NCBI RefSeq assembly: GCF_003185805.1
Contig: NZ_QHJY01000049.1
Location: 1-45,638, forward strand
DNA: 45,638 bases
Direction: 5' to 3'
DNA from: Caulobacter sp. D5
Lineage (GTDB): Bacteria > Pseudomonadota > Alphaproteobacteria > Caulobacterales > Caulobacteraceae
This document shows, piece after piece, positions 1 to 27,713 of this stretch. The notes beneath the pieces were generated by a model. That model saw nothing but the letters and a program-made list of their open reading frames with translations. It was not told the DNA's origin and searched no databases. Within the stretch, counting starts at the first letter, position 1. Each line of letters begins with the position of its first letter. Both the position numbers and the translations under genes were made by a program.

Positions 1-74
1 GGCCGGCCGGGGCCGCGGCGCGGGGCGGGCGTGTCGGCGGGCGGGGCGGGCGTCTGTCCGGCGTCGAAGTCCAT
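1..74 (-). CDS. 5' end of an unidentified minus-strand gene (partial)
   Basis: Reading leftwards from an ATG at 72-74, the frame stays open to the window edge for 24 codons. It gives a Pro/Ala-rich start ending in RRGPGR(P). A proline-rich head followed by a GPGRP-like basic patch is common just before the helix-turn-helix of TetR-type regulators, but the domain itself lies outside the window, so this is only a guess. The Shine-Dalgarno match is weak (TTAGGT about 8 bases upstream). Composition agrees with coding on this strand, but 24 codons cannot prove it. Confidence 0.35.
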   Translation of the reverse strand, partial: MDFDAGQTPAPPADTPAPRRGPGR

Positions 75-108
75 GACCGCAACCTAAAGGTAAATGCGAA
101 CAGCGGTC

Positions 109-143
109 AAAAAAAGCGGCGCATCCTGGGGAGGATGCGCCGC
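109..143 (-). terminator. Intrinsic terminator (minus strand)
   Basis: A perfect 12-bp stem (116-127 with 132-143) closes a GGGG loop. On the minus strand it is followed by seven T residues (115-109). No intact minus-strand gene lies immediately upstream, so it either ends a decayed gene or acts as a leader element for the partial gene at 1-74. Confidence 0.65.
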
Positions 144-322
144 GAAAACGCGCGATCCTGGGAAGGCTGTCCGCGCGAGGTCCGGGTCGCCGTCAGAACT
201 TGCCTCGCGGCCCGGTGAGGGAGTCAGCGAGGTAAGGTCTCTGCGTCGATGTGGTCATACCTTAATTTGGCAATGAGGTAAGGCCAATAGTTGGCGTGGT
301 CGACCAGGTGGCGAGCAGCGGC

Positions 323-351
323 TTGCGCGATATTGTTGATATCGATATCAG
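323..351 (+). promoter_or_regulatory. GH97 promoter with LacI-type operator
   Basis: A perfect 14-bp palindrome, TGATATCGATATCA, lies at 337-350. A TTGCGC element (323-328) is 17 bases from TATCAG (346-351), so the right half of the palindrome supplies the -10 hexamer. A repressor bound here would block RNA polymerase directly. The same spacing recurs at 11152-11180 and 21957-21985. A degenerate second site may lie at 391-405. Confidence 0.65.
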
Positions 352-457
352 TTTGCCGGTCCCGGTTTGGTCGCGGTGCGGCCGGCCGGGCTGTGAACGA
401 TAATCGACCGCCCGCGCGCCGATGCGCCGCCAGGGCGGAAGGGGAGGAGGCGACGCG

Positions 458-2398
458 ATGAAGCCCACACGCCGCGACCTGGTCGCGCTGGCCGCGATGT
501 CCGCCGCCGCCACGACCGCCCACGCGGGCGAGACCGCCCGGCGCCACCAGATCGCCTCGCCCGACGGCCGGCTGAAGGCGGTGGTCGATGTCTCGGGCGC
601 CGTTCCCCGCTGGAGCGCCACCTATGACGGCAAGCCGCTGCTGCTGCCGTCGGATCTCGGGCTATGGCTCGCCGAGGGGCGGCTGCTGGGCGAGGGCGCG
701 AAGCCGGCCGGCGTCACGCCCCAGACCTTCGAAGGCGACTGGTCGCCGCCGTTCGGGCAGTCGGCCCGCTACGACCAGTCGGGCCGCCAGGTCACCCTGC
801 ACATGGTCGATCCCAAGGCGGGGATCCGGTTCGACATCGTCCTGCGGGTGCTGAACGGGGCCGTGGCGGTGCGCTACGTGCTGACGGGCCTGGCCAAGGG
901 CGAGAGCCTGGCGCTGATGGGCGAGCGGACGGGCTTCCGTTTTCCCGAGACGGCGCGGCTCTACGCCAGCCGCGACGAGGGCGACATCCACGTCTCCACC
1001 CAGGCCGGCCTCGCGCCGCTGGAGCATCCGGACCTGACCGGCTCGTCCGACAAGGGGCCCTATGCCGACCTGCCGATCACGGTGGACGTCGGCAACGGCG
1101 TCTACGGCTTCATCGCCGAGTCCGACCGGCTGCACTATCCGCGCTGCATGGCCCGGGCGCACGACAAGGGCGGGCTGGTCACCTACCTGATGCGCTATCC
1201 TGGCCGGGCGACCGGCTGGGGCGGTCAGGACGACACGCCGGAAGAGGCGACCTTCGAGATCGCCGTCGGCCAGAAGACGCCGTGGCGCGTGCTGCTGGCG
1301 GCCGACAGCGCCAAGGGGCTGATCGAGCGCCACCACGTGGTCCCGACCCTGGCGACGCCGAACCAGCTGGGCGACGTCTCGTGGGTGCGGCCTGGCCACG
1401 CCTTCCGGATCATGAAGCCCTATTCCACCGAGGCCTCGCTGAAGGCGGTCGACTTCGCCCAGAAGCGCAACATCGCCTACGTGCTGTTCGACGCTCACTG
1501 GTACGGCGACGGGACGGACGCCTCTGACCCCACCGCCCCGATCGCGGCCTTGGACCTGCAAAGGGTGATCGACTACGCCAAGGCTCGGAACATCGGCGTG
1601 CTCGTCTATATCGACCGGGTGGCGGTGACCAAGGCGCTGACCGACATGTGCCGGCTCTACCAGCGCTGGGGCCTGGCGGGGGTGAAGCTGGGCTTCATGT
1701 GGGAGGGCCGGCAGTCCGACGTCGACTTCATCACCAAGGTGGTGCGGGCGTTCGGCGAGCACGGCATGGTCGTGAACCTGCACGACAACCTGCGGCCGGC
1801 GGGCCTCGAGCGCACCCTGCCCAACTACCTGACCCTGGAGGGCGTAAAGGGCAACGAGCAGTTCCCGGCCCCGCGCCACCACGTGAACCTGGCCTTCACC
1901 CGGCCGATCGCCGGGCCGATCGACTATACGATCTGCTACGCCCAGGAGCGCAACCAGACCACCAACGCCCACCAGCTGGCCCTGGCGGTCACCTGCTACA
2001 GCCCGCTGACCCTGCTCTACTGGTACGACAAGCCCGAGAAGTACGAGGGCCAGCCCTGGCCGGAGCTGGAGTGGTTCGACGCCTGCCCGACCACCTGGGA
2101 CGAGACCCGGGCCATCGCCGGCGAGCTTGGGGAATACGTCGTCATCGCCCGCCGCAAGGGCCGGACTTGGTTCCTCGGCGCCCTGACCAACGAGATGGAG
2201 CGGCGGCTGGACCTGGATCTGGCCTTCCTGGGCGCGGGGCGATGGACGGCCGTGCGCTACCAGGACGGCGATCTGGCCCGGCCGGCCAACCGCACCAAGG
2301 TCGTGATCGAGCGGCAGGCCGTGGAGGCAGGGACGCGTCTGCGCCTGCAACTGAACGCGGCGGGCGGGCAGGCGATACGGTTCGAGCCGCTGGGGTAG
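458..2398 (+). CDS. Glycoside hydrolase family 97, Tat-exported
   Basis: This 646-residue enzyme has the GH97 layout: an N-terminal beta-sandwich, a (beta/alpha)8 barrel and a C-terminal beta domain. GH97 members hydrolyse alpha-glucosides or alpha-galactosides. The ATG at 458 is chosen over 422 because GGGGAGGAGG sits 7 bases before it and the protein then starts with a twin-arginine signal (TRRDLVAL, then an Ala-rich stretch to about residue 23). In the barrel, VKLGFM stands where retaining GH97 enzymes have VKxDFM with the Asp nucleophile. HDNLRPAG stands where the inverting SusB type has HE. The acidic LEGVKGNEQ motif is kept. The usual nucleophile is therefore missing and the enzyme looks inverting-like with an Asp base, so its linkage specificity cannot be taken from either subtype. 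It is preceded by the shared operator, so it probably belongs to the same regulon as the rest of the locus. Confidence 0.9.
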   Translation: MKPTRRDLVALAAMSAAATTAHAGETARRHQIASPDGRLKAVVDVSGAVPRWSATYDGKPLLLPSDLGLWLAEGRLLGEGAKPAGVTPQTFEGDWSPPFGQSARYDQSGRQVTLHMVDPKAGIRFDIVLRVLNGAVAVRYVLTGLAKGESLALMGERTGFRFPETARLYASRDEGDIHVSTQAGLAPLEHPDLTGSSDKGPYADLPITVDVGNGVYGFIAESDRLHYPRCMARAHDKGGLVTYLMRYPGRATGWGGQDDTPEEATFEIAVGQKTPWRVLLAADSAKGLIERHHVVPTLATPNQLGDVSWVRPGHAFRIMKPYSTEASLKAVDFAQKRNIAYVLFDAHWYGDGTDASDPTAPIAALDLQRVIDYAKARNIGVLVYIDRVAVTKALTDMCRLYQRWGLAGVKLGFMWEGRQSDVDFITKVVRAFGEHGMVVNLHDNLRPAGLERTLPNYLTLEGVKGNEQFPAPRHHVNLAFTRPIAGPIDYTICYAQERNQTTNAHQLALAVTCYSPLTLLYWYDKPEKYEGQPWPELEWFDACPTTWDETRAIAGELGEYVVIARRKGRTWFLGALTNEMERRLDLDLAFLGAGRWTAVRYQDGDLARPANRTKVVIERQAVEAGTRLRLQLNAAGGQAIRFEPLG

Positions 2399-2493
2399 GG
2401 CGAGCGGCTTTTCAGAGCCCTTGGCCATCTTCACCGAGCATCCCCGCCTTCGCGGGGAACTGACGGACTGGAGGGCAGTCGGGGGCTGAGGGC

Positions 2494-2591
2494 AAAAAAA
2501 CGGGGCGCCGGGCAGACGGCGCCCCTTGGTCTTGGAAGTCGGGAGGAACTTGCGTCCAAGAAGTGAGCGCCGCAGGGTGGCGCTGCAAGAT
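2494..2591 (-). ncRNA. Candidate operator-controlled small RNA
   Basis: The minus strand carries a consensus promoter (TTGACA at 2626-2621, 17-base spacer, TATCGA at 2603-2598), so transcription should start at an A near 2591. The roughly 98-nt RNA would fold into three hairpins. The first is a 6-bp stem AGCGCC/GGCGCT (2584-2579 with 2571-2566) with loop ACCCUGC. The second is CUUGG plus AAGU paired with ACUU plus CCAAG (2560-2531) with an 8-nt loop UCCUCCCG. The third is a 9-bp GC terminator stem (2525-2517 with 2510-2502) followed by G and seven U. CCUCC-type loops are a known feature of alphaproteobacterial small RNAs that pair with ribosome-binding sites. No open frame of note lies inside. 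The shared operator covers the -10 element, which suggests induction together with the sugar genes. I see no protein gene that this promoter could otherwise serve. Confidence 0.72.
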
Positions 2592-2592
2592 T

Positions 2593-2626
2593 TGATATCG
2601 ATACCAATTTATGAGGCCGCTGTCAA
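2593..2626 (-). promoter_or_regulatory. Small-RNA promoter with LacI-type operator
   Basis: The operator core TGATATCGATACCA (2593-2606) overlaps the -10 hexamer TATCGA (minus strand, 2603-2598). The -35 TTGACA (2626-2621) is a perfect consensus match with 17-base spacing. The two flanking protein genes converge towards this spot, so the operator cannot serve either of their starts. Confidence 0.7.
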
Positions 2627-2656
2627 TCGGCGTTCGATGAGGAGGCTCCTTCTCTC

Positions 2657-2804
2657 CCGTCATCCCGGCCGGAGCGCGCAGCGCGCAGAGCCGGGACCCA
2701 GGGGCCGCCGCACCGCGCCGGCCGTCGCCGGGGCGCTTGATCGATCCGCGGAGCCTGGTCCCCTGGGTCCCGGATAACGGCTTCGCCGTTTCCGGGATGA
2801 CGAG
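2657..2804. repeat. Dispersed palindromic repeat, family A, copy 1
   Basis: A long imperfect palindrome of the form GTCATCCCGG ... CCGGGACCCAGGGG ... CCCCTGGGTCCCGG ... CCGGGATGAC. The same outer and inner arms recur at 7441-7593 and 18717-18832 with different middles. All copies are extragenic. Confidence 0.8.
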
Positions 2805-2814
2805 AAGGATAGGG

Positions 2815-4551
2815 CTACCGCGTCACCCAGAACCCGTCGAAATCCGTCCAGCCGATCCGCGTCGCGGTGTTGGCCGGGGTCCCTGCCGGGGCCTGGGCGA
2901 AGACGCCGACCTGGCTGCCGACCCAGCGTCCTGGGCGGCTGACGAAGGGCGCGCCGACGGGGGTGAAGGCCTGGCCGTCGAGGCTGTAGCTGAGGGTCAC
3001 CCTGGCGTGCAGCGAGCGCAGCATCGAGGGCCAGTAGGGCGAGAACTCCGGCGGCGGGTCGGCGACGACCACAGGCTCGGCGGTCATCCGCAGCCAGACG
3101 GCGGTCGGGGCCTTGGCCTGGATCACCTCGACCCGCTCGGGCTGGAACTTGTCGGCCCTCAGGCGGTCGACGCGGACCAGGGCGGGGCCGGCGGCGGTGT
3201 TCTGCAGGCCGATCCAGGCGTAGTCGGACCCGAACATCACGAGGCCCGCCCGCTCGCCGACCGCCTTGGGCGCGAAGTCGAGTTTCGTGGTCACGGTGAA
3301 GCGCTCGGCCGGCAGCTTCTGGGTCAGCAGGGCGCCGGTCTCCCAGAGGTTCTCAGGGGACGAGATCGCCTTCAGCCGCAGGCGGCCGGGCGCGGCCTTG
3401 AGGTCGGCCCAGTCGTCGTTCGGATTGGCGTTCCATTGCCAGGCCAGGGACAGGGCGCCGTCGAAATCGTCGCTGTCCTGCGGGGCGAGCCGCGGGGAGA
3501 GGGTCTTGGTCGCCGGCTTGCGGTGGTTCAGCACCGGCTGGCCGATGCCGTCGCCGCCGGGATCCTCGCCGATGACCGGCCAGCCGTCCTTCCAGGCCAT
3601 GGGTTGCAGCCACACCCGGCGGCCGTAGGAGTCTGCGTCCTGGAAGTGCAGGAACCAGTCCTCGCCGGTCGGGGTGGTCACCCAGGCGCCCTGGTGGGGG
3701 CCGTTGATCTGGGTCGGGCCCTGGTCGAGCACGTCGCGGCCCTCGTAGGGGCCGGCCAGCTTGCGCGAGCGGAATACGCCCTGCCAGCCGCCCTTCACGC
3801 TGCCGCTGGGGACGAACAGGTAGTACCAGCCATCCCGCTTGTAGAGCTTGGGGCCTTCGGTGGTCATCCACGGGAACGGGCCGCGCGATGTCATGACCTT
3901 GGGCTGCTTGTCGCCCTCGACCAGGGTGATCGCCTCGCCGACCGCGCGGTCGCCGGCCTTGTTGAGGCGGCGGGCGGTGACGACGTTGGCGAAGCCGGCG
4001 CGGCTGCGGGCGAAGGCGGTGACCAGCCAGCCCTGGCCGTCGTCGTCCCAGAAGGGGGCCGGATCGATGACGCCGCGGCGGTCGTCGACCAGCACGGGCT
4101 TGGACCACGGTCCGGCCGGATCCTTGGCCTTGACCAGGAACACGCCGAAGTCGGGGTCCGGATAGTAGATCAGGAACTCGCCGTTGCGGTGGCGGATGGC
4201 CGGGGCCCAGACCCCGCCGCCGCGACGCGGCGTGGCGTGGTGGGCCGCAGGCGTGATCTGGGGCAGGGCGTGGCCGATGATCGTCCAGTTGACCAGATCG
4301 GTCGACTTCAGGATCGGCAGGCCGGGCGCGTTGGTGAACGACGACGAGACCAGGTAATAGGCGTCGCCCACCCGGACGGCGTCGGGGTCGGAATAGTCGC
4401 CGGCCAGGACCGGGTTCCTGTAGGTCCCGTCGCCCAGGTCGGGCAGCCAGGCGCGCTCGGTCTTGACGGGTTCGCCCGCCGAGGCGGGAAGCGCGGCCAG
4501 CGCCGCCGCGAGCACAATCCACCCGCCGAATGCTCGACCCAAGCCCGCCAT
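2815..4551 (-). CDS. Glycoside hydrolase family 43 (beta-xylosidase or arabinofuranosidase type), secreted
   Basis: This 578-residue enzyme has an N-terminal signal peptide (hydrophobic stretch ending ALPASA). The GH43 five-bladed propeller shows its three acidic landmarks in order: the base Asp in DYSDPDAVRVGD, the pKa-modulating Asp in VIDPAPFWDDDG, and the acid Glu in TTEGPKLY. A C-terminal concanavalin-like sandwich follows from about residue 350, as in many xylosidases and arabinofuranosidases of this family. The frame could open at a TTG (4561-4563), but GGGAGG there is the Shine-Dalgarno for the ATG at 4549-4551, which is therefore the start. It lies downstream of, and on the same strand as, the LacI gene at 4622-5659, with an operator in the 70-base gap, so it can be repressed separately. 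Exact substrate is not readable from sequence. Confidence 0.9.
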   Translation of the reverse strand: MAGLGRAFGGWIVLAAALAALPASAGEPVKTERAWLPDLGDGTYRNPVLAGDYSDPDAVRVGDAYYLVSSSFTNAPGLPILKSTDLVNWTIIGHALPQITPAAHHATPRRGGGVWAPAIRHRNGEFLIYYPDPDFGVFLVKAKDPAGPWSKPVLVDDRRGVIDPAPFWDDDGQGWLVTAFARSRAGFANVVTARRLNKAGDRAVGEAITLVEGDKQPKVMTSRGPFPWMTTEGPKLYKRDGWYYLFVPSGSVKGGWQGVFRSRKLAGPYEGRDVLDQGPTQINGPHQGAWVTTPTGEDWFLHFQDADSYGRRVWLQPMAWKDGWPVIGEDPGGDGIGQPVLNHRKPATKTLSPRLAPQDSDDFDGALSLAWQWNANPNDDWADLKAAPGRLRLKAISSPENLWETGALLTQKLPAERFTVTTKLDFAPKAVGERAGLVMFGSDYAWIGLQNTAAGPALVRVDRLRADKFQPERVEVIQAKAPTAVWLRMTAEPVVVADPPPEFSPYWPSMLRSLHARVTLSYSLDGQAFTPVGAPFVSRPGRWVGSQVGVFAQAPAGTPANTATRIGWTDFDGFWVTR

Positions 4552-4574
4552 CACGCCTCCCAACGCTCTTGTTA

Positions 4575-4588
4575 TGATATCGTTACCA
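4575..4588 (-). promoter_or_regulatory. LacI-type operator upstream of the GH43 gene
   Basis: The core TGATATCGTTACCA, an imperfect copy of the regulon palindrome, lies 24 bases before the GH43 start codon in the short gap after the upstream LacI gene. No -35 element is convincing. Confidence 0.6.
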
Positions 4589-4621
4589 ATATCAGGGCGC
4601 GGGGCTTTGGCAAGACCGCCT

Positions 4622-5659
4622 TCAGCGCGGCGGGGCGGCGGTCGAGGCGCGTTCGATCAGCTGCAGTTCGCCCTGCACATGGACGCCGGGCTCGCCGCCC
4701 GGACGGGCCAGGTCCATGGCCAGCTTGACGGCCGAGGCGGCCATGTCGGCGATCGGCTGGCGGATGGTGGTCAGCTCGGGCCAGACGGTGGTGGCCACCG
4801 AAGTGTCGTCGAAGCCGGCGATGCTGAGATCGGCCGGGATCGACAGGCCAAGGCCGTGGGCGACGGCGCTGACGGCGGCGGCCATGTCGTCGTTGGCGGC
4901 GAAGATCGCCGAGGGACGGCGGCGCAGGTTGAGCAGATGCCGGGCCGCCTCCAGGCCGCCGCGATAGCTGAAGCCGCCGTCGGCGACATAGGCGTCGTTC
5001 ACCGTCAGGCCCGCCTGCGCCATCGTCTCGCGGAAGCCCTGCTCGCGGCGCTGGGCCGTGGAGTGGGCCGGGTCGCCGCGCACGAAGGCGATGTCGACAT
5101 GGCCAAGGTCGATCAGGTGGCGGGTCATCATCCGCGCGCCTGCGAAATCGTCGATGAACACGGCCGGCGCGCCCTCGCGCGGGAAGGCGGTGGCGAAGCT
5201 GACGGCGCCGACGCCGGCCTTCTCCAGCGACTCCAGGATCGCGGCGTCGTCGCACAGCGGCGGGGGCAGGATCACCGAGCCGACGCCGGCGTCGACCAGC
5301 TTCTGGACGGCCTGGGCCGGTGTCGGATGGGCCTGGCTGGGCTCGATCAGCAGCTGGCAGCCGCTCTGGCTGGCCTGGCGAAAGGCGCCCATCAGGTAGT
5401 TCGACAGGTTCGACGAGCTGGCGTTCGAATACAGCATGCCGATCAGCGAGACGCCGGTGCGGGTGGCGCGGGCCAGGGAGTTGGGCCGGTAGCCCAGGGT
5501 CTTGATGGCTTCCTCGACCTTGTCGCGCACGGCCTGGCGCACGTGCGGATAGCCGTTGACGACGCGAGAGGCGGTCATGGAGGAGACGCCCGCGGCCTGC
5601 GCCACGTCGTGGATGGTCGGCGCCTGTCGCCTCTGCGTGCTCAAGGAGTCCTCGCCCAA
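4622..5659 (-). CDS. LacI-family transcriptional regulator (paralog 1)
   Basis: A full-length LacI/GalR repressor. The N-terminal helix-turn-helix reads TIHDVAQAAGVSSMTASRVV, the hinge YRPNSLARATRTG, and then comes a periplasmic-binding-protein-like sugar sensor with IDDFAGARMMTRHLI and AGFDDTSVATTVWPE. No ATG precedes the HTH. The frame opens at TTG 5657-5659, and a second TTG at 5642-5644 has a better Shine-Dalgarno (GAGGA), so the protein is 340 or 345 residues. It is transcribed away from a close paralog (5816-6937), and the two share long effector-domain motifs (VILPPPLCD, ATTVWPELTTI). It is the first gene before GH43 on the same strand. A role as repressor of the TGATATCGATATCA operators is likely from position, but which paralog binds them cannot be decided here. 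Confidence 0.92.
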   Translation of the reverse strand: MGEDSLSTQRRQAPTIHDVAQAAGVSSMTASRVVNGYPHVRQAVRDKVEEAIKTLGYRPNSLARATRTGVSLIGMLYSNASSSNLSNYLMGAFRQASQSGCQLLIEPSQAHPTPAQAVQKLVDAGVGSVILPPPLCDDAAILESLEKAGVGAVSFATAFPREGAPAVFIDDFAGARMMTRHLIDLGHVDIAFVRGDPAHSTAQRREQGFRETMAQAGLTVNDAYVADGGFSYRGGLEAARHLLNLRRRPSAIFAANDDMAAAVSAVAHGLGLSIPADLSIAGFDDTSVATTVWPELTTIRQPIADMAASAVKLAMDLARPGGEPGVHVQGELQLIERASTAAPPR

Positions 5660-5793
5660 ACTGCGACTCTCTACGGGTCGCGGCGCAGTCTAGCGAACAC
5701 CGCACCGATAAGTCCAAGCGAGAGAAGGAGAAGCGCCCGGCAGGCGAACGCGCGTTTTTGCGCTGGCGTGCGCGACTGGCGCCGCTAGGATGA

Positions 5794-5811
5794 ATTGTTA
5801 TCGTGAACAAT
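5794..5811 (+). promoter_or_regulatory. Putative autoregulatory operator of the second LacI gene
   Basis: ATTGTTATCGTGAACAAT is an inverted repeat with TTGTT/AACAA arms. Its left half, TGTTATCG, matches the regulon palindrome read on the other strand. It sits 4 bases before the ATG at 5816, so a bound protein would block both transcription and initiation of its own gene. Confidence 0.5.
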
Positions 5812-5815
5812 CGCG

Positions 5816-6937
5816 ATGCGTTCCGAGGATGGTGCGTTGGTGAAGAGTCCCCGCAAGGCCAGGCCGGCGTCCGGCGCGGAAGCGACGACCGTGACCGCGC
5901 GCCCGGCCCCGCCCCGGACCTCCACCATCCACGACGTCGCCCGCCACGCCGGGGTCGGCTCGATGACCGTCTCGCGGGTGATCCGGGGCACGGCCAATGT
6001 CAGCCCGGCCATGCGCGAGCGGGTCGAGGCCTCGGTGCGGGCCCTGAACTACCAGGTCAATGTCGCCGCCCGGGCCACGCGCTCGCGCGCCTCGGCCGCC
6101 CGGGTCGGCATCCTCTACAGCAACCCCAGCGCCTCCTATCTCAGCGACATCATGATGGGCGGGCTGGAGCAGAGCTCGAAGCTGGCCAGCCACCTGATCC
6201 TCGAGCGCTGCGAGGGCCTGGCCGGCCAGAAGCAGGCGGTGAAGCGACTGCTGGCGGCGGGGGTGGACGGGGTGATCCTGCCGCCGCCGCTGTGCGACTC
6301 GCGCCAGACCATCGCCATGCTGCGGGCCGAGGGGGTGACGGTGCTGGCCCTGGCGACCGCGCGGCCGATGGTCGACGTCTCCAGCGTGCGCATCGACGAC
6401 TTCGAGGGCGCGCTGGCCATGACCCGTCACCTGATCGCGCTTGGCCATCGCGACATCGCCTTCATCAAGGGCGACCCGCAGCACACCCCGACGCAGCTGC
6501 GCTACGAAGGCTTTCTGGCGGGGATGGCCGAGGCGGGGCTGGACGTGCGGCCCGAATGGGTGGCCCAGGGGCTCTTCACCTACCGCTCGGGCCTGGCGGC
6601 GGCCGAAAAGCTGTTCGAGGCTCGCCTGCGGCCCAGCGCCATCTTCGCCAGCAACGACGACATGGCCGCCGCCGCCCTGGCCGTGGCGCACGGCCGCCAG
6701 ATCGCCGTGCCGCGCGACCTGACCGTCTGCGGCTTCGACGACACCGCTGTGGCCACCACCGTCTGGCCCGAGCTGACCACGATCCACCAGCCGATCGCCG
6801 AGATGGGTCGGGCGGCGGTCAGCCTGATCGTCGAGGAGATCCGCGCCCGCAAGCTGGGCGGCGATCCGGCGCCGGTGCATCACCTGCTGCCCTTCACCCT
6901 GATGGACCGCGCCTCGTCCGACGCCGCGCCGCCCTAA
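5816..6937 (+). CDS. LacI-family transcriptional regulator (paralog 2)
   Basis: A 373-residue LacI/GalR protein. It has an unusually long Ala/Pro-rich head (about 35 residues) before the helix-turn-helix TIHDVARHAGVGSMTVSRVI, followed by a complete sugar-sensing domain (SVRIDDFEGALAMTRHLI, SAIFASNDDMAAAALAVAHG, CGFDDTAVATTVWPE). The ATG at 5816 has no clear Shine-Dalgarno. TTG 5837 or GTG 5840 after GAGGA (5824-5828) could be the real start, which would shorten the odd head. It is divergent from and clearly homologous to the regulator at 4622-5659, suggesting a local duplication. An operator-like repeat at 5794-5811 suggests autoregulation. The two paralogs could sense different breakdown products of the same glycan. 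Confidence 0.92.
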   Translation: MRSEDGALVKSPRKARPASGAEATTVTARPAPPRTSTIHDVARHAGVGSMTVSRVIRGTANVSPAMRERVEASVRALNYQVNVAARATRSRASAARVGILYSNPSASYLSDIMMGGLEQSSKLASHLILERCEGLAGQKQAVKRLLAAGVDGVILPPPLCDSRQTIAMLRAEGVTVLALATARPMVDVSSVRIDDFEGALAMTRHLIALGHRDIAFIKGDPQHTPTQLRYEGFLAGMAEAGLDVRPEWVAQGLFTYRSGLAAAEKLFEARLRPSAIFASNDDMAAAALAVAHGRQIAVPRDLTVCGFDDTAVATTVWPELTTIHQPIAEMGRAAVSLIVEEIRARKLGGDPAPVHHLLPFTLMDRASSDAAPP

Positions 6938-7040
6938 ATCTCGCTGGTGATGTCGGCGCCGACAGGCTTCGATCGTCGTTCCGGGCGAGAGGTCGGCGTG
7001 GCCGGTCTCACGGCGTTTGGCCCAGGCGAGGAGACGAGCG

Positions 7041-7418
7041 ATGCGAGTGATGGTGCTGGTCAAGGCCACCGAGGACAGCGAGCAGGGTTTCGTCCGCTCG
7101 CCCGAGACCATGGCGATGATGGAGGCCATGGGCCGCTTCAACGACGAACTGGCGGCGGCCGGGATCCTGGTGACGGCCGACGGCCTCAAGCCCTCGTCGG
7201 CGGGCAAGCGGGTGGCGTTCGACGGCGCGGCCCGCACGGTGATCGACGGCCCCTTCGCCCAGCCTCGCGAATTGGTCGCCGGCTTCTGGCTGTGGGAGGT
7301 CAAGGACCTGGATGAGGCGGTCGCCTGGGTGAAGCGCTGCCCCAACCCGATGCCCGGCCCCAGCGAGATCGAGATCCGGCCGGTCTATGAGCTGGCGGAT
7401 CTGATGGGGGAGGGCTGA
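7041..7418 (+). CDS. DGPF-motif YCII-related protein
   Basis: A 125-residue YCII/DGPF-domain protein: RVMVLVKATEDSE at the start, VIDGPFAQPRELVAGFWLWE in the middle and EIRPVYELADL at the end. The family is a small alpha/beta fold often encoded beside ECF sigma factors, and no reaction is firmly known for most members. The ATG at 7041 follows GAGGAG by 7 bases and is preferred to the in-frame TTG at 7017. No sigma factor gene is adjacent. It sits 103 bases after the second LacI gene on the same strand and might be co-transcribed. Its link to sugar use is unknown. Confidence 0.85.
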   Translation: MRVMVLVKATEDSEQGFVRSPETMAMMEAMGRFNDELAAAGILVTADGLKPSSAGKRVAFDGAARTVIDGPFAQPRELVAGFWLWEVKDLDEAVAWVKRCPNPMPGPSEIEIRPVYELADLMGEG

Positions 7419-7440
7419 GGACGCGCGGAGATATTTCCGC

Positions 7441-7593
7441 TCGTCATCCCGGAAAGCCCGCAGGGCTTATCCGGGACCCAGGGGACTGGGCTCTGCGGAT
7501 CGATCAAACACCCAAGCAGCAGCCGGCGCAGTGCGGCGACCCCTGGGTCCCGGGTCTGCGGTCCGCTGCGCGGCCCTCCGCCCGGGATGACGA
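7441..7593. repeat. Dispersed palindromic repeat, family A, copy 2
   Basis: It has the same outer arms (TCGTCATCCCGG ... CCCGGGATGACGA) and inner arms (CCGGGACCCAGGGG ... CCCCTGGGTCCCGG) as 2657-2804. It fills the gap between two convergent genes and may end transcripts from both sides. Confidence 0.8.
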
Positions 7594-7616
7594 CGAAGGG
7601 GGAGGGCCTATCTGGC

Positions 7617-8549
7617 CTAAGCCACCTGCTCGCTCAGCAGCTGGCGGGCTTCCTCCAGGCTCCACAGCCGCGCGGCGCCGCGCACGCCGGAGGCGTCGCC
7701 CCAGACGGCGGGCTTGATGCGGGTGCTCCAGCGGTCGGCGAACACGCGGCCGGCGACCAGGCCCGGCAGGCGCTGGCAGACCTCGGGCACGTTCGACAGG
7801 CCGCCGCCGACGACGATGGCGTCGGGGTCGAGGATGTTGCACAGCACCGCCACCGATCGACCCAGGCGGTCCATCAGCCGGTCGAAGGCGGCGGTGGCGG
7901 CGGCGTCGCCGGCTCGCCAGGCGGCGATGATCTCCTCGCCGCTCCAGGCCTTGGTCGTGGCCTCCTGGAAGTCGCGACGCAGGCCCGTGCCCGACACCCA
8001 CATCTCCAGGCAGCCGTTCTGGCCGCACCAGCAGCGGGGGCCTTCGCGCTCTTCCGCCGTCGGCCAGGGCAGGGGCATGTGGCCCCATTCGCCGGCGATG
8101 CCGTTCTCGCCCTCGATCAGCTTGCCGTCGACGACCATGCCGCCGCCGCAGCCGGTGCCCAGGATGATGGCGAACACCACCCGCGCGCCCGCGCCGGCGC
8201 CGTCGACGGCTTCCGATAGGGCCAGGCAGTTGGCGTCGTTGGCCAGCCGCACCGGTCGGTTCAGCGCCTGGGACAGGTCCTCGCGGAAGCGGCGGCCGTT
8301 CAGGTACAGCGAGTTGGCGTTGCGCATCACGCCTGTGGCCGGCGAGATCGAGCCGGGCGCGCCGATCCCCAGGGTGCCGCGCGCGCCGAGCTTCTGCTCC
8401 AGCTCGCCGACCAGGTCGCGGACGACGCCCAGGGCCTTGTCGTAGTCGCCCGGATTGGGAACGCGGGCCTTGGCCAGCACCTTGCCGCTGGCGTCCAGGG
8501 CGGCGGCCTCCACCTTGGTGCCGCCGAAATCCACGCCGATCTGAATCAC
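7617..8549 (-). CDS. ROK-family sugar kinase
   Basis: A 310-residue ROK kinase, cytosolic. It has the ATP-binding DFGGTK at residues 7-12, the GTGCGGG phosphate loop, and the zinc and sugar signature EWGHMPL followed by CWCGQNGCLE (CxCGxxGCxE), so it should phosphorylate a free hexose. The start is GTG 8547-8549, which overlaps the stop of the GH88 gene by four bases (GTGA), indicating translational coupling. Last gene of the symporter-GH88-kinase operon, where it would capture the neutral sugar released from imported oligosaccharides. Fructokinase or glucokinase specificity cannot be told from the motifs. Confidence 0.92.
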   Translation of the reverse strand: MIQIGVDFGGTKVEAAALDASGKVLAKARVPNPGDYDKALGVVRDLVGELEQKLGARGTLGIGAPGSISPATGVMRNANSLYLNGRRFREDLSQALNRPVRLANDANCLALSEAVDGAGAGARVVFAIILGTGCGGGMVVDGKLIEGENGIAGEWGHMPLPWPTAEEREGPRCWCGQNGCLEMWVSGTGLRRDFQEATTKAWSGEEIIAAWRAGDAAATAAFDRLMDRLGRSVAVLCNILDPDAIVVGGGLSNVPEVCQRLPGLVAGRVFADRWSTRIKPAVWGDASGVRGAARLWSLEEARQLLSEQVA

Positions 8550-9733
8550 CAGTAGGGCTCCCAAACCCGGGTGAGGCGGACCAGCGCCTCGAGGAAGAAG
8601 TAGTCGCCCCACAGGCAGGCCTCGTCGACGCCGACGCGGTTGGGCATGTGGTAGACGCCGTGGGCCAGGATGCCGGTCCCCGGCTCGCCCAGCGGCAGCA
8701 GGTAGCGCTCGCCCAGGGTCTCGACCATGGCCAGGGCCGCGGCCTCGTAGGTCTCGCGGTCGGGATCGGCCAGCGGCAGGGCGCGGGCCAGCTCCAGCAG
8801 GCCGCAGGCGGCGATGGCGGCGGCCGAACTGTCGCGCTCGGCGTCGGTGAACACCAGGTCCCAGCAGCAGATCAGGTCGCCTGGCAGGCGGTTGAGGAAG
8901 TAGTTGGCCAGCCGCGCCGCCAGGGCGATCAGGGCCGGATCGGCCTTGTAGCGATGCACCAGCGGGAAGCCCGACACGCCCCAGGCCTGGCCCCGCGCCC
9001 AGCAGGAGTCGTCGCTGAAGCCCTGGTGGGTGCTGCCGCGCAGCGGCGCGCCCGATTTGGCGTCCATGTAGAAGGTGTGGAAGGTCGAGGCGTCGGGCCG
9101 CACGATGTGGCGGGCGGCCTCCTCGATGTGACGGTCGGCGGCGATGCGGAAGGTCGTATCGCCCGTCTCCTCGCTGGCCCAGTAGAGCAGGGGGAGGTTG
9201 AGGTTGCAGTCGATGATCATCCGGCCGGCCTGCTCGGGATCGGAAAGATCGCCCCAGGCCTGGATGATGCCGGCGGCCGGCAGGTAGCGGGTCATCAGCC
9301 GGCGGGCCGCCGCCAGGGCCGCCTGGCGGGCGCCGATGTTGCCGGTCAGCTTCCAGCCCGCCACGCAGGACAGCGAATAGAGGAAGCCCAGGTCGTGGTG
9401 GTCGACGTTGATCTCGCGGTCGATGCGGTCGCGGAAGCTCTCGACCTGGCGCTCGGCCGCCTGGCGGTAGCGGGGCTGGCCGCCGGCCTCGAAGGCCAGC
9501 CACAGCATCCCGGTCCAGAAGCCGTTGGTCCACTCGGTGTTGTCCATCGGCGCATAGACCCCGCCCTCGCTGGAGGGCCTGGGGAAGGCGTCGGTGAAGC
9601 GGTCGAGGCTGACGTCGATGCGGGCCAGGACGGCGGCGATGATGGCGTCGAGCCTGGCGCGGTCGGGGCGCGGACGCGCCAGGATCTCGTCGGCGCGGGC
9701 GATGGGCTCGCGGGCGGTGGTGGTGTCGGGCAT
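8546..9733 (-). CDS. Unsaturated uronyl hydrolase, GH88 family
   Basis: This 395-residue (alpha/alpha)6 enzyme matches unsaturated glucuronyl hydrolases. These hydrate the C4-C5 double bond of the uronic acid left by polysaccharide lyases and so split off the adjacent sugar. The two essential Asp residues of the family are visible: Asp114 in DHHDLGFLY and Asp176 in IIDCNLN. There is no signal peptide, so it acts in the cytosol on imported oligosaccharides. Its ATG follows the symporter stop by 2 bases, and its own stop overlaps the kinase start, so the three genes form one tight operon. Its presence implies that the glycan is cut upstream by a lyase, probably the heparinase II/III-type protein at 19602-21914. 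Confidence 0.93.
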   Translation of the reverse strand: MPDTTTAREPIARADEILARPRPDRARLDAIIAAVLARIDVSLDRFTDAFPRPSSEGGVYAPMDNTEWTNGFWTGMLWLAFEAGGQPRYRQAAERQVESFRDRIDREINVDHHDLGFLYSLSCVAGWKLTGNIGARQAALAAARRLMTRYLPAAGIIQAWGDLSDPEQAGRMIIDCNLNLPLLYWASEETGDTTFRIAADRHIEEAARHIVRPDASTFHTFYMDAKSGAPLRGSTHQGFSDDSCWARGQAWGVSGFPLVHRYKADPALIALAARLANYFLNRLPGDLICCWDLVFTDAERDSSAAAIAACGLLELARALPLADPDRETYEAAALAMVETLGERYLLPLGEPGTGILAHGVYHMPNRVGVDEACLWGDYFFLEALVRLTRVWEPYW

Positions 9734-9735
9734 GT

Positions 9736-11025
9736 TCAGTTGACCTTGGCCACGTCGGCGCCGCCGAGGTCGGCCTGAAGCTTGGATTGGGCCAGCGCCG
9801 GATCGGGCTCGGCGTCCTTGGCGGGCCGGTCTTGCGGCGGGGTGGGGGAGAGGGCGAACACCGAGGCGACCCAGAAGGCGGCTGCGAACAGGGCGATCAG
9901 CAGGTAGGTGCTGGGGAAGCCGATCAGGTCGTAGCTCTTGCCGACGATCGGCGACAGGATCGCCAGGCCCAGCGAGTGGCCGAAGCTGACGCCGACCAGG
10001 TAGAGCGTCGAGGCCAGGCGGCTTTCGAAGTGGAAGGCGATGTAGCGGAAGATCGACACCACCAGGATCGGCAGCTCCAGCGAGTGCAGCATCTTCATCG
10101 CCGAGATCGGCACGGGGCCGTGCACCAGGCCCGAGCCGGCGATGCGCACGATCATGATCGCCGCGGCCAGAAGCAGGCCGTTCTTGGCCCCGATCCTGTT
10201 CACGACGAAGGGCGCGACGAACAGCATGCCGGCCTCGAGGAAGATCTGGGCCGAGTTCAGGTAGCCGAACATGGCCGCGCCCTGCTTCGGGTCGGCGAAG
10301 TGCGAGGCGTAGAAGGCCGGGAACTGCTGGTCGTAGACGAGATAGAGGTTCGTCACGCCGAGGATCAGCACCATGAAGCCCCAGAACTTCGGCAGCCGGA
10401 AGATGGCCATGGCGTCGGCGGGCTTGAGGGCGTCAGAGCGCTCGCGCTCGTCGGCGCTGGGCTCGATCTTCGCGAAGGCCAGCAGCGGCAGCAGGACGAG
10501 GCCCGCGCACGAGGCCAGGGCGAAGTTGTAGAGCGGGTCCATGTTGAACAGCCGGCCCGAGAAGAAGGCGGCGGCCGCGAAGCCCAGCGACCCCCACAGG
10601 CGCGCGCGGCTGTATTCGAAGCCGTACTTGCGGCCCACCCGATCGACGAACGACTCCAGGGCGTAGCTGCCGGCGATGAAGGTGATGCCCAGATAGGCCC
10701 CGCCGGCGATCGCGCCCAGCAGCAGGTTGGTCTTCAACAGCGGGCCGTAGACGAAGGCGAAGAAGGCGCCCGACAGCACCACCAGGCCGCTGATCAGCCA
10801 CAGGACATGCTTGCGCAGCCCGACCTTGTCGGAAACGAAGCCGTAGAGCGGCTGGGAGAGCATCGCGAAGATGAAGTTGGCCGCGAAGACCACGCCGGTC
10901 TGCGCGCCGGAAAGGCCCAGGGTCCGCTTCAGCCACAGGGGCAGCAGCGAGATGCTCATGGCCTGGGCGAAGAAGTAGAAGAAGAGGAAGGCGCTCAGCA
11001 GCGCGTAGTTCTTCCTGAAACCCAT
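9736..11025 (-). CDS. LacY-like oligosaccharide:proton symporter (MFS)
   Basis: A 429-residue, 12-helix major facilitator protein alignable with E. coli LacY over its whole length. It shows RKNYALLSAFLFFYFF in helix 1, QPLYGFVSDKVGLRK in the helix 2-3 loop, and DQQFPAFYASHFA before helix 8. LacY's sugar-binding Glu126 and Arg144 are kept (Glu124, Arg142), as are the proton-relay Arg302, His322 and Glu325 (VRIAGSG; LHSLELP). LacY Glu269 has a non-acidic residue in the matching column, with a Glu three places on, so the sugar site is related but altered. The start at 11023-11025 is chosen because GGGAGGGAG lies just before it, although an in-frame ATG exists 15 bases upstream. First gene of the operon with GH88 and the ROK kinase, and probably imports the unsaturated di- or oligosaccharide across the inner membrane. 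Confidence 0.92.
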   Translation of the reverse strand: MGFRKNYALLSAFLFFYFFAQAMSISLLPLWLKRTLGLSGAQTGVVFAANFIFAMLSQPLYGFVSDKVGLRKHVLWLISGLVVLSGAFFAFVYGPLLKTNLLLGAIAGGAYLGITFIAGSYALESFVDRVGRKYGFEYSRARLWGSLGFAAAAFFSGRLFNMDPLYNFALASCAGLVLLPLLAFAKIEPSADERERSDALKPADAMAIFRLPKFWGFMVLILGVTNLYLVYDQQFPAFYASHFADPKQGAAMFGYLNSAQIFLEAGMLFVAPFVVNRIGAKNGLLLAAAIMIVRIAGSGLVHGPVPISAMKMLHSLELPILVVSIFRYIAFHFESRLASTLYLVGVSFGHSLGLAILSPIVGKSYDLIGFPSTYLLIALFAAAFWVASVFALSPTPPQDRPAKDAEPDPALAQSKLQADLGGADVAKVN

Positions 11026-11099
11026 GCGACTCCCTCCCATCGCCGCGCCGTCCGCGCTTCATGGCGCGGTCGGTCCAGCCGTTCGGTCATAGACCAAAC

Positions 11100-11113
11100 T
11101 GATAACGATACCA
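11100..11113 (-). promoter_or_regulatory. LacI-type operator for the symporter operon
   Basis: TGATAACGATACCA, a variant of the regulon palindrome, lies 75 bases upstream of the symporter start. It is 66 bases centre to centre from the copy at 11166-11179 on the other side of the divergent promoter region, so one repressor could serve both directions or loop the DNA. Confidence 0.62.
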
Positions 11114-11151
11114 AGCGCTTTTGCGCTCTTCGCCGCCTACGAAGCCGGGGC

Positions 11152-11180
11152 TTGCATGGCGTGCCTGATATCGATATCAA
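11152..11180 (+). promoter_or_regulatory. Promoter with LacI-type operator for the beta-helix enzyme gene
   Basis: A perfect palindrome, TGATATCGATATCA (11166-11179), overlaps a -10-like TATCAA (11175-11180). A TTGCAT element (11152-11157) is placed 17 bases upstream, the same geometry as at the GH97 promoter. Confidence 0.65.
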
Positions 11181-11295
11181 TTAGCAGCCTTCGGGCGTCC
11201 CGCAAGCGATTTCGACGCGCCGTCTCTTTCGGGGCGCTGGTCGTCCGGGCCAATCAAGACGCCGCGCCAGAGCGTCGACCAGGGGAGAGACAAGG

Positions 11296-12720
11296 ATGCG
11301 TTCGCCTGCTCGTGGAATTCCGGCCCTGCTCGCCGCCGTCGCCCTGGGCGCGTTGGCCGCGGGCGCGGCATTGGCCGACGAAACCCCCGGCCTGACGATC
11401 CATCCGCTGCCGCCGGGCGGGCTGTTCTACACCATGCACAACGATGCGTTCACGGTGCGGGTGCGCAAGCCGGGCGGCCCTTGGCGCGACCTCTACGAAT
11501 ACACCGCCAAGGTCGATTCCGACGGCCCCAGCGACGTGTCGGTGGTGCAGTTCGACTTCACGGGCCCGGTCGAGATCGGCGTGCGCAAGAACAACGGCGA
11601 CTTCAAGCGCGTCGAGGTGCGGCCCGCCAGCAACGCCATCAGGTCCAAGGTCGAGAAGGGGATCGTCACCTTCACCATCGACAAGCCGCAGAACCTGTCG
11701 GTCGAGTTCGACGGCGACCGGCTGCACAACCTGCTGATCTTCGCCGGCGCGCCGATCGCGCGGCCGGCGCCCGGCCCCGACGTGGTGTTCTACGAGCCTG
11801 GCCTGCACACCCCGCCCGGCGGCGGCCAGTATTTCCCGGTGAAGTCGGGCCAGACGATCTATGTCGCGGGCGGCGCCGTGCTGCAGGGGACCTTCAAGCC
11901 CGAGGGCGTCGAGAACGTGCGGATCCTCGGCCGCGGGATCATCGACCGGCCGGCCGAGCAGCTGGTGGTGCAGAACTCCAGGAACGTCACGGTCGAGGGC
12001 CTGACCTTCCTGACGCCCAAGCACGGCACGATCGCCTGCGCGTCGTCGAGCAACGTGACCTTCCGCGACTTCCGCACCCTGTCCAACGGCTCGTGGTCGG
12101 ACGGCGTCAACGTCTTCGCCTGCAGCGACGTGACCGTCGAGCGGGCCTTCATCCGCACCTCGGACGACAGCGTCGCCGTCTACGCCACCCGCAAGGACGG
12201 CAAGGGCGACACCCGCCGGGTGCGGGTGCGCGACTCCATCTTCTGGCCCGACGTCGCCCACGCGGTGTTCATCGGCCTGCACGGCGACAGCGAAAAGCCC
12301 AACGTGCTGGAGGACCTGCGCTTCGAGAACATCGACATCCTGGGCCTCGATGAGGACGACCCCGAATACCAGGGCGCGCTGGCGATCAGCGCCGGCGACA
12401 CCAACACGGTGCGCGACGTGGTGTTCGACGGGATCCGGGTCGATCAGATCGAGGAGGGCAAGCTCTTCAACGTGCGCACGGTGTTCAACGCCAAGTACGG
12501 CACGAGCCCGGGCCTGCTGGTCGACGGGGTGGTCTTCCGCAACATCGACTTCACCGGCGACGGCTGGCCCAGTCCCTCGACGCTCTCGGGCTACGGGCCC
12601 GACCGGCCGGTGAAGAACATCAGCTTCGAGAACGTGACCATCGGCGGCAAGCGGCTGAAGGCGGCCGATCCCTCGGTGATCGAGATCGGCCCCAATGTCG
12701 AAGGGGTGAGCTTCAAGTGA
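11296..12720 (+). CDS. Secreted right-handed beta-helix glycosidase (GH28/GH49-like)
   Basis: This 474-residue protein has a signal peptide ending near ALADE, an N-terminal beta-sandwich (about 30-165) and a right-handed beta-helix. The catalytic-type stretch WSDGVNVFACSDV ... IRTSDDSVAVYATRKDG holds paired aspartates as in polygalacturonases and dextranases. The two-domain order (sandwich, then helix) resembles GH49 dextranases more than plain GH28, so a role as an endo-acting hydrolase on a backbone of the target glycan is plausible but its linkage is not known. GGGGAGAG precedes the ATG. A clear paralog lies at 26184-27647, with the same FPVKSGQ and LDEDDP motifs. The stop overlaps the start of the small GntR gene by four bases. 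Confidence 0.82.
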   Translation: MRSPARGIPALLAAVALGALAAGAALADETPGLTIHPLPPGGLFYTMHNDAFTVRVRKPGGPWRDLYEYTAKVDSDGPSDVSVVQFDFTGPVEIGVRKNNGDFKRVEVRPASNAIRSKVEKGIVTFTIDKPQNLSVEFDGDRLHNLLIFAGAPIARPAPGPDVVFYEPGLHTPPGGGQYFPVKSGQTIYVAGGAVLQGTFKPEGVENVRILGRGIIDRPAEQLVVQNSRNVTVEGLTFLTPKHGTIACASSSNVTFRDFRTLSNGSWSDGVNVFACSDVTVERAFIRTSDDSVAVYATRKDGKGDTRRVRVRDSIFWPDVAHAVFIGLHGDSEKPNVLEDLRFENIDILGLDEDDPEYQGALAISAGDTNTVRDVVFDGIRVDQIEEGKLFNVRTVFNAKYGTSPGLLVDGVVFRNIDFTGDGWPSPSTLSGYGPDRPVKNISFENVTIGGKRLKAADPSVIEIGPNVEGVSFK

Positions 12721-12995
12721 CCCCCTCGCCTGGCCTCTTCTGGGCGCCGCTGAAGCGCACCGGCCGGGTGGCGCTGTATCGGCAGCTGGCCGACCGGCTG
12801 CGGGCGGCGATCCTCGACGGCGAGCGCCGCCTGCCGACCGAGCGGGAGCTGGCCAGCGGCTTCACGGTTGCCAGGATCACTGTCCGCGCCGCCCTCGACC
12901 TGCTGGCGGCCGACGACCTGATCTCGCGCCGCCCCAGGCATGGAACAGTGGTGAAGGCGTTCGACCGCGCAGGTGAAACCTCGCTTCATGCATGA
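12717..12995 (+). CDS. Stand-alone GntR-type winged-helix protein
   Basis: A 92-residue protein consisting of little more than a GntR DNA-binding domain: LYRQLADRLRAAILDGERRLPTERELA, then a recognition helix in FTVARITVRAALDLL and the wing SRRPRHGTVV. The FCD, UTRA or other effector domain that normally follows is absent, and the downstream DNA shows no frame that would restore it. It starts at a GTG overlapping the beta-helix enzyme stop (GTGA), so it is translationally coupled to an enzyme gene. It could be a constitutive or protein-partner-dependent regulator, or the surviving head of a truncated gene. Perfect palindromes at 12985-12996 and 13164-13177 are candidate binding sites. Confidence 0.8.
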   Translation: MTPSPGLFWAPLKRTGRVALYRQLADRLRAAILDGERRLPTERELASGFTVARITVRAALDLLAADDLISRRPRHGTVVKAFDRAGETSLHA

Positions 12996-13163
12996 AATCG
13001 GCCGGCGCGATCGAGAGTGAAGTCATCGCGTCGCATACATCCTGAAGTTTTCATCCGGCGCTGTGCTGATCGCACGTAGCGGTCGATATCGCATTGCTGA
13101 TCGAAAGCTGTGGGAATTGCTGAGATGCCGCCGTCCACTGCGTGATAGCGGTGTTTGAATGTT

Positions 13164-13177
13164 TCCGACATGTCGGA
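13164..13177. promoter_or_regulatory. Perfect 14-bp palindrome TCCGACATGTCGGA
   Basis: A perfect inverted repeat ending 12 bases before the -35 hexamer of the receptor promoter. The position suits an activator site. It is different in sequence from the LacI-type operator, so it points to a second regulator, possibly the coupled GntR protein just upstream. Confidence 0.45.
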
Positions 13178-13189
13178 GCCGAAACCCCG

Positions 13190-13224
13190 TTGACAGCGTT
13201 CAAAATGCGCTGATAACGATAACA
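13190..13224 (+). promoter_or_regulatory. Promoter with LacI-type operator for the first TonB receptor
   Basis: A consensus TTGACA (13190-13195) is followed 16 bases later by GATAAC (13212-13217). That hexamer is the left half of the operator TGATAACGATAACA (13211-13224). Confidence 0.62.
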
Positions 13225-13331
13225 ACAAGCCGATCGGGGCGCCTGGGGCGCTCTCGAAAACGACAAGGCGGTCGGCGCGCCGGCCCCGCCGCGAGGCGAG
13301 GCCGGGCTGAAAGTCCGAAGGGGAGGATAGG

Positions 13332-16253: not shown

Positions 16254-16336
16254 GCCCTCGGGTTGGAATTCCCGGTGATGCGAGGGCGCTCCTCGCCTCA
16301 CCGGCCTGTCTCAACACTTCTCGGCGAGCGGCGCGC

Positions 16337-18673: not shown

Positions 18674-18716
18674 GACTTGGTTGTGATGAAGACCAAGAGC
18701 GCGCTCTCCTCTCCAT

Positions 18717-18832
18717 CGTCATCCCGGCCGCAGCGAAGCGGAGAGCCGGGACCCAGGGGCGGCCGCACTGCCCGCGGCCCCTGGGTCCCGGGTCTGCGGA
18801 CCGCTGCGCGGTCCTTCGCCCGGGATGACGAG
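18717..18832. repeat. Dispersed palindromic repeat, family A, copy 3
   Basis: It has the same arms as at 2657-2804 and 7441-7593: TCGTCATCCCGG on the left, CCGGGACCCAGGGG and CCCCTGGGTCCCGG inside, CCCGGGATGACGA on the right. It lies between two co-directional genes and so could reduce readthrough or stabilise the upstream mRNA end. Confidence 0.8.
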
Positions 18833-18867
18833 AAAAGGGGGCGGGTCAGGTGTCTGGGAGCACGGCC

Positions 18868-19530: not shown

Positions 19531-19536
19531 GGCCGC

Positions 19537-19564
19537 TTGCACCTTATTCTGATATCGATATCAT
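19537..19564 (+). promoter_or_regulatory. Promoter with LacI-type operator for the lyase gene
   Basis: A perfect TGATATCGATATCA (19550-19563) overlaps a -10-like TATCAT (19559-19564), with TTGCAC (19537-19542) 16 bases upstream. Confidence 0.63.
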
Positions 19565-19601
19565 AATCGCAAGCCGGAAGAGCTTGCGGGGAGTGTTGCG
19601 C

Positions 19602-21939: not shown

Positions 21940-21985
21940 TTTGTCAGACAAAAGAGTTGCCAGCTAACGATGATATCGATAACAA
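21940..21985 (+). promoter_or_regulatory. Promoter and operators of the second TonB receptor
   Basis: TTGCCA (21957-21962) and TAACAA (21980-21985) are 17 bases apart. The operator TGATATCGATAACA (21971-21984) covers the -10. A second inverted repeat TTTGTC-A-GACAAA (21940-21952) ends just before the -35, in an activator-like position, and its arms recur in the GH3 promoter region at 44504-44525. Confidence 0.6.
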
Positions 21986-25066: not shown

Positions 25067-25100
25067 CCGCCGGACGCATCCTTTCCTCTCCCGAGGGCTG

Positions 25101-25133
25101 GGGCGCCGTCCGCGAGGCGGCGCCCTTTCTTTT
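25101..25133 (+). terminator. Intrinsic terminator after the second TonB receptor
   Basis: An 8-bp GC stem, GGGCGCCG (25101-25108) with CGGCGCCC (25118-25125), is followed by TTTCTTTT. It separates the receptor transcript from the sulfotransferase-like gene. Confidence 0.8.
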
Positions 25134-27678: not shown

Positions 27679-27713
27679 TGATATCGATATCAATGGTGGG
27701 TGTGGGAGGCAAG
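27679..27713 (-). promoter_or_regulatory. Promoter with LacI-type operator for the second beta-helix gene
   Basis: A perfect TGATATCGATATCA lies at 27679-27692. On the minus strand a TTGCCT precedes TATCGA (inside the operator) by 17 bases, the same register as the small-RNA promoter at 2593-2626. A half-site, GTTATCGATC, lies at about 27666-27675 between operator and gene. Confidence 0.62.

Follow-up and report, generated by a model that had tools for sequence, protein, structure and literature searches.

The window, by which is meant the whole 45,638-nt stretch of Caulobacter sp. D5 DNA analyzed here, carries a glycan-utilization locus in which a promoter, an operator, and two hairpins lie between convergent GH97 and GH43 genes. 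The question it raises is whether this interval encodes a small RNA (sRNA) under local LacI control and, if it does, at which mRNAs such an RNA would act. The features concerned are as follows.

458-2398, plus strand: GH97 gene, transcribed toward the RNA, with an operator at 337; ribosome-binding site (RBS) GGGGAGGAGG
2525-2494, minus strand: intrinsic terminator, a 9-bp GC stem (2525-2502) followed by U7 (2500-2494)
2561-2530, minus strand: hairpin 2, stem UCUUGGA/UCCAAGA, with the anti-Shine-Dalgarno-like UUCCUCCC at 2548-2541
2587-2564, minus strand: hairpin 1, loop ACCCUGC at 2578-2572
2591-2494, minus strand: predicted small RNA of about 98 nt, its start placed from the -10
2607-2592: LacI-type operator, palindrome TTGGTATCGATATCAA, lying over the -10 of the RNA promoter
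2603-2598, minus strand: -10 hexamer TATCGA, preceded by TG (extended -10) and within the operator
2626-2621, minus strand: -35 hexamer TTGACA, of which TTGAC does not vary among the nine closest genomes
2815-4551, minus strand: GH43 gene, upstream of the RNA on the same strand, with the RNA within its 3' region; operator at 4575
4622-5659, minus strand: LacI-family regulator 1, candidate repressor
5816-6937, plus strand: LacI-family regulator 2, candidate repressor
9736-11025, minus strand: LacY-type symporter gene, with operators 11100 and 11166 and a weak candidate promoter on the same strand; RBS GGGAGGGAG
11296-12720, plus strand: GH28 gene; operator-overlapped promoter at 11166
13332-16253, plus strand: TonB receptor 1; operator-overlapped promoter at 13211; RBS GGGGAGGATAGG
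22145-25066, plus strand: TonB receptor 2; operator-overlapped promoter at 21971; RBS CGCAGGAGGGG
26184-27647, minus strand: second GH28 gene; operator-overlapped promoter at 27679

A search of both strands with up to three mismatches found 15 operator matches at nine places in the window, against 0.05 expected. The exact 14-mer TGRTATCGATAYCA occurs at five sites in the 5.29-Mb genome, all of them in the window (337, 2593, 11166, 19550, and 27679), and the reversed-pattern control of the exact operator gave no site in the same genome. At eight of the nine places, a TTG-16..18-TA promoter with an operator-overlapped -10 points toward a gene or the RNA. The remaining place, 11100, accompanies the site at 11166, and only a weak promoter candidate (5/12) is present there for the symporter. 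The same promoter design is found for the RNA, GH97, GH43, both GH28 genes, the first two TonB receptors, and a lyase-like gene that follows the site at 19550, and the RNA promoter has the best score (9/12) among the operator-linked promoters in the window. With the operator on its promoter, the predicted RNA gene has the arrangement that marks membership in the local LacI regulon.

Further neighbors in the locus are a ROK kinase gene and a GH88 gene. The two LacI paralogues are divergent and adjoin each other (4622-6937). An 815-aa open frame (16226-18673) between receptor 1 and the lyase-like gene has no Pfam or NCBIfam match, and tblastn finds matches to it in eight of eight other window-type genomes, with 74-87% identity where displayed. 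TonB receptor 3 (31089) and a GH10 gene are preceded by another palindrome, TGGTAGCGCTACCG (31046-31059), which differs from the regulon operator and which we take to resemble the Caulobacter xylose-repressor operator; it suggests a second, xylan-type regulon.

The initial annotation described a minus-strand promoter (TTGACA, 17 nt, TATCGA) with its -10 under an operator shared with the sugar genes, followed by no gene and then by two hairpins with C-rich loops and a 9-bp terminator with U7. The promoter is present at 2626-2598 with the 17-nt spacer, though its -10 matches TATAAT at only three of six positions, and the operator overlapping it is indeed the one found at the nine places. The hairpins and terminator are seen in the fold of 2591-2494, which has an energy of -41.9 kcal/mol and a z score of -4.7, equaled by none of 200 shuffles, with the loops ACCCUGC and CCUCCC. 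A generic promoter scan of positions 1-20000 reported one promoter, against 1.2 expected by chance, and missed the RNA promoter because of its weak -10; a generic terminator scan of the same positions reported nine terminators, against 7.9 expected. Since both are at chance level, it is the operator and the conservation that carry the case. At curated cutoffs, neither the window nor ten loci from relatives matched any Rfam family. No reading frame common to the window RNA and its relatives was found, and five of the nine window-type RNAs lack both ATG and GTG, so a small protein in place of the RNA was rejected, with TTG starts left in play. The interval from the GH43 stop to the RNA promoter contains an inverted-repeat element (2657-2803), GTCATCCCGG ... 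CCGGGATGAC, recognized by eye; this interval is much shorter in those window-type relatives with sequence displayed, and a similar end lies just before 18825.

BLAST searches of 75 genomes of the genus gave near-full-length matches to the query in five others, and any match at an E value of 0.1 was obtained in 23 of the 75, mostly short. A covariance model built from six sequences (R1) was run on 390 genomes of the family and gave nine strong matches (E value of 4.4e-19 or better, the six model sequences counted in). The next match was that in G067 (2.8e-7); 38 of the 390 had any match at 0.01, mostly weak, and none better than 1e-6 fell outside the operator-bearing genomes. TTGAC, the operator, UUCCUCC, and the terminator are common to all nine strong matches (the window and eight further genomes), while the spacer varies. 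The exact operator is found in 17 of the 75 genus genomes, and 16 of these carry a short RNA-like segment that is led by the operator and has a terminator, including nine of the window type, four diverged ones with a similar layout, and three of a second C-rich type; in G084, the only one without such a segment, the single exact operator is not followed by a terminator. Within the window type, part of hairpins 1 and 2 is lost in G019, and hairpin 1 is unrelated in G020. In the diverged four (G006, G075, G088, and G067), the operator leads into a hairpin, UCCUGCGAA, a further stem in which C-G in some genomes is U-A in others, and a GC terminator; the RNA's own operator is one base off the exact pattern in G006, G075, and G088, not in G067. 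In the second type (G065, G026, and G066), the operator is followed by a GUCC-CGGGAC hairpin, a C-rich stretch with CUGCAUG at its end, and a GC terminator, and these RNAs may represent an independent origin of the same wiring. They adjoin the symporter gene (L095, 4349-4441; L097, 4555-4650; L099, 4673-4766).

The C-rich character of the RNA is kept more widely than its exact words. CUGC occurs in 15 of the 16 operator-led RNAs, not always in a loop. UUCCUCC occurs in all nine closest genomes and, as an exact word, in one of the seven others (G065); it is absent from the G006, G075, G088, and G067 RNAs and from two of the three second-type RNAs, and these six are C/U-rich. An accessible C/U-rich seed of the kind expected of an anti-Shine-Dalgarno sRNA is thus conserved. 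R1 scores were 36 bits for G067 and 15.4 to 24.2 bits for the other six non-window-type RNAs, and apparent plain terminators in the same run scored 14.7 to 17.5 bits; homology of the G066 RNA by R1 score was therefore set aside, its 15.4 bits lying within the terminator range. A weak R1 match at 25039-25133 looks like a plain terminator after receptor 2, and nine weak family-wide matches inspected by eye (L045-L050 and L052-L054) have no operator. Among 80 stretches, an operator-and-terminator filter passed 5 of 10 from Caulobacter and 0 of 70 others; the filter is insensitive, a similar version having missed G065.

The exact operator also occurs in nine family genomes outside the genus, with up to seven per genome in a sister genus (L320-L331). 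Fourteen stretches from eight outside-genus genomes (seven of g14 and one of g13) contained no operator with promoter followed by a terminator, in a scan that left out one G135 site (C173) and the G305 site. As a positive control, the same code recovered the RNA in all nine carrier stretches among 11 given from the genus, plus two other terminators. The sister genus, with the operator and with no RNA found in the stretches scanned, offers a natural comparison for the added effect of the RNA.

In an alignment of ten sequences, two-sided changes were counted at 6 of 17 pairs, against a shuffle mean of 2.4; none of 500 shuffles had as many, and slid controls gave 0 to 4. The covariation score was matched by 5 of 500 shuffles and the percentage paired by 30 of 500. 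Five of the six pairs of helix 1, one of the five pairs of helix 2, and none in the invariant terminator stem had such changes, and no more than one sequence carried any given one of the six. The model itself guided the fit of the alignment. The window's hairpin 1, which is in a different register, is poorly represented there. L055 (G088), with helix 2 aligned one column out of register, was left out of the count; with it included (11 sequences), the count is 9 of 17, three of them from L055 alone. The predicted RNA therefore has what an independent sRNA gene should have, namely its own promoter, no shared frame (ATG or GTG starts), a terminator, and a conserved structure, for which covariation in the aligned sequences gives moderate support.

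The promoter, operator, C-rich segment, and terminator are kept together in the window, in eight further genomes, and in seven genomes beyond these nine, also when the RNA is relocated, which argues for the LacI-controlled sRNA gene that the initial annotation had proposed. The conservation of promoter, loops, and terminator in relatives, which it had named as the check, holds, with the UUCCUCC qualification given above. From these comparisons, an RNA gene under local LacI control is highly probable, and three accounts that would deny it an independent role each appear very improbable. One makes the palindrome an auxiliary operator and the hairpins a terminator for the neighbors, with no functional RNA; the site does lie between convergent genes, its terminator could end GH43 transcripts, and the terminator scan reports its stem on both strands, such stems being no commoner than in shuffles. 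However, the U7 run is unbroken on the minus strand only, the hairpins carry some compensatory changes, TTGAC is invariant at the right distance in nine of nine genomes despite the varying spacer, and the joint arrangement recurs elsewhere in seven genomes. It is even less expected that the RNA derives mainly by processing from the 3' end of the GH43 mRNA, with its promoter secondary: GH43 is upstream on the RNA's strand in the window, G061, G004, and G020, but the promoter is conserved in its own right, and in seven genomes the RNA sits beside the symporter gene, not behind GH43, with the operator still on its promoter. In those seven genomes, the RNA is on the same strand as, and upstream of, a GH28 or receptor gene, for which it could be a terminated leader (attenuator), the window copy being a displaced relic, and no further operator is seen between them in G066 and G067. 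Against this equally improbable account, a further operator intervenes in the other five (G026, G065, G088, G006, and G075), with a promoter found on it in G026 and G065, and the next gene in the RNA's direction in the window, GH97, is on the other strand.

The predicted RNA can be compared with known ones. RF00519 (alphaR8) is the Rfam family with the lowest E value for the window RNA and its G021 relative, and the family's cutoff of 41 bits was not reached by the window (21.6), G021 (24.8), or G065 (14), and the cores do not come into register in the alignments. Four RF00519 matches were found in the window genome, and the two of them listed (C173 and C260) are on other contigs. RsaI of Staphylococcus aureus is controlled by the LacI-family protein CcpA and so resembles the window RNA as a carbon-status-linked sRNA under a LacI-family regulator; it differs in that CcpA is a global catabolite regulator and RsaI has G-rich motifs, whereas the window RNA lies in a local, substrate-specific regulon. 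The Sis RNAs of the alphaR8 type (RF00519, mmgR) are also short, with an intrinsic terminator and a C/U anti-Shine-Dalgarno core. SisA-D of Caulobacter crescentus share the 10-mer UUUCCUCCCU, and SisA represses many mRNAs, TonB-receptor mRNAs included, likely through it (PMC12559287). The window RNA has GUUCCUCCCG, with eight of the ten letters in the same order; unlike the single-stranded Sis core, this core is in a hairpin loop, and the promoter carries a LacI operator, whereas no shared motif is reported upstream of sisA-D (PMC12559287). By analogy, the window RNA may work like Sis RNAs, though it is not assigned to alphaR8. CrfA, from the same genus, is likewise carbon linked and affects TonB-receptor expression, but it is a G/A-rich, carbon starvation-induced sponge of the Sis RNAs that captures their anti-Shine-Dalgarno 10-mer, a polarity opposite to that of the C-rich window RNA (PMC12559287). 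DonS and DonS-like RNAs are also encoded in glycan loci, the polysaccharide loci of Bacteroides, but in another phylum and cis-antisense to susC homologues, whereas the window RNA is intergenic with a local LacI-type operator (PMC7366714). No precedent for an sRNA under a LacI protein within a local sugar locus was found in open-licence PMC papers, in line with the initial annotation, which knew of no such wiring, and the terms "small RNA" and "sRNA" are absent from the main text of a LacI regulon survey (PMC4052901). Judged from sequence, the predicted RNA would be a new RNA family with new wiring and a known kind of mechanism.

It is fairly probable that the predicted RNA acts by pairing at ribosome-binding sites, and the question is then at which ones. 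The initial annotation had placed GGGAGG-type sites before all three TonB receptors, which holds for those at 13332 and 31089 (GGGGAGGA) and fails for that at 22145 (CGCAGGAGGGG). In the window, GGAGG precedes five of eight genes listed; the lyase-like gene was not taken at a true start. In the relative G004, with receptor 1 and the second GH28 excluded, GGAGG precedes four of six genes of the regulon, compared with 98 of 645 background genes (one-sided P value of 0.0066). These local Shine-Dalgarno sequences may just reflect high expression, and the loop match to them could simply reflect their strength. The most specific pairing seen inside the regulon, found by looking and not predicted beforehand, is that of CCUGCG in loop 1 with CGCAGGAGGGG ahead of receptor 2, a pairing that the window has in common with seven window-type relatives, and receptor 2 is our best guess, from sequence, at a specific target inside the regulon. 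In G004, where starts were set by a Shine-Dalgarno-weighted rule, CGCAGGA precedes the start in 0 of 645 other genes and in 2 of 44 receptors, one of which is the receptor 2 orthologue; it is absent before receptor 2 in all six more distant genomes read (G088, G006, G075, G026, G066, and G065).

TonB receptors as a class are not specially matched to the loop in G004. This genome has 112 matches to the TonB-receptor plug domain, of which 111 were typed (one below the cutoff was left out) and 44 had readable RBSs; the 645-gene background may still contain receptors, because only 6 receptors were removed from 651 genes. GGAGGA occurs in 3 of the 44 receptor RBSs and in 32 of the 645 others. The loop of G004 pairs with the 44 modestly better than with the 645, and the 16S anti-Shine-Dalgarno control gives the same trend, so that class targeting was rejected; for the window's loop, the same comparison in G004 gave no significant difference. 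Whole-RNA duplex energies with regulon RBSs were mostly no better than those of shuffled RNA, the scoring not being discriminating. The clearest duplex among the window's nine leaders lies outside the regulon, with receptor 3 (31089), whose RBS has GGGGAGGAAG (-35.8 kcal/mol; 0 of 100 shuffled RNAs as good).

This last result favors the view that the same LacI-controlled RNA has its main targets outside the regulon, giving priority to the glycan in use by repressing the receptors and transporters that serve other substrates, with targets that overlap those of the Sis RNAs and perhaps with titration by CrfA. Receptor 3 is under the other palindrome, and the precedent of SisA, which represses receptors among many targets through a 10-mer captured by CrfA (PMC12559287), points the same way, given the eight letters that the window RNA has of it. 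Nevertheless, such a main role outside the regulon is rather unlikely, for receptor RBSs are not specially matched in the relative and no receptor 3 orthologue with a readable start was found in the regulon stretches of relatives, where most matches are to receptor 2. That the regulon itself is the main target is somewhat doubtful when taken by itself.

We favor, with a probability of about 0.58, a local LacI-regulon sRNA that serves as a co-induced brake at the ribosome-binding sites of the regulon. In the mechanism that we infer for it, from transcription and the identity of the binding LacI protein to Hfq use, repression, and targets, a LacI-type repressor (one of the two at 4622-6937) would sit on the palindrome over the -10 when the glycan is absent and would silence the RNA along with the genes for enzymes and receptors. 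Once a glycan breakdown product had released the repressor, the RNA would be made alongside the mRNAs and end at its own terminator. Its exposed C/U-rich loops would pair with Shine-Dalgarno regions, most likely those of mRNAs of the same regulon, through CCUGCG at the receptor at 22145 and through UUCCUCC at GGGAGG-type sites. The RNA would thereby limit envelope-protein synthesis during induction and hasten shut-off, acting as an incoherent feed-forward brake.

A base-pairing RNA under the operator of the enzymes would add a second control layer to a glycan locus, and with 112 plug-domain matches in one relative, limiting or prioritizing receptor synthesis is a real question for these bacteria. 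Since strong R1 matches were found only with the operator and the operator is present in only 17 of 75 genomes of the genus, studies of standard C. crescentus strains may well have overlooked this RNA. A broader proposal, which we offer as speculative, is that a family of substrate-inducible anti-Shine-Dalgarno RNAs, tied to one glycan regulon through its LacI operator, acts alongside the Sis RNAs and is captured by CrfA, the starvation sponge. The presence of one glycan would then be linked to the TonB receptors made, giving a carbon-priority circuit that acts post-transcriptionally with no global catabolite regulator, in which the RNA may have moved or re-evolved within the regulon with its operator kept.
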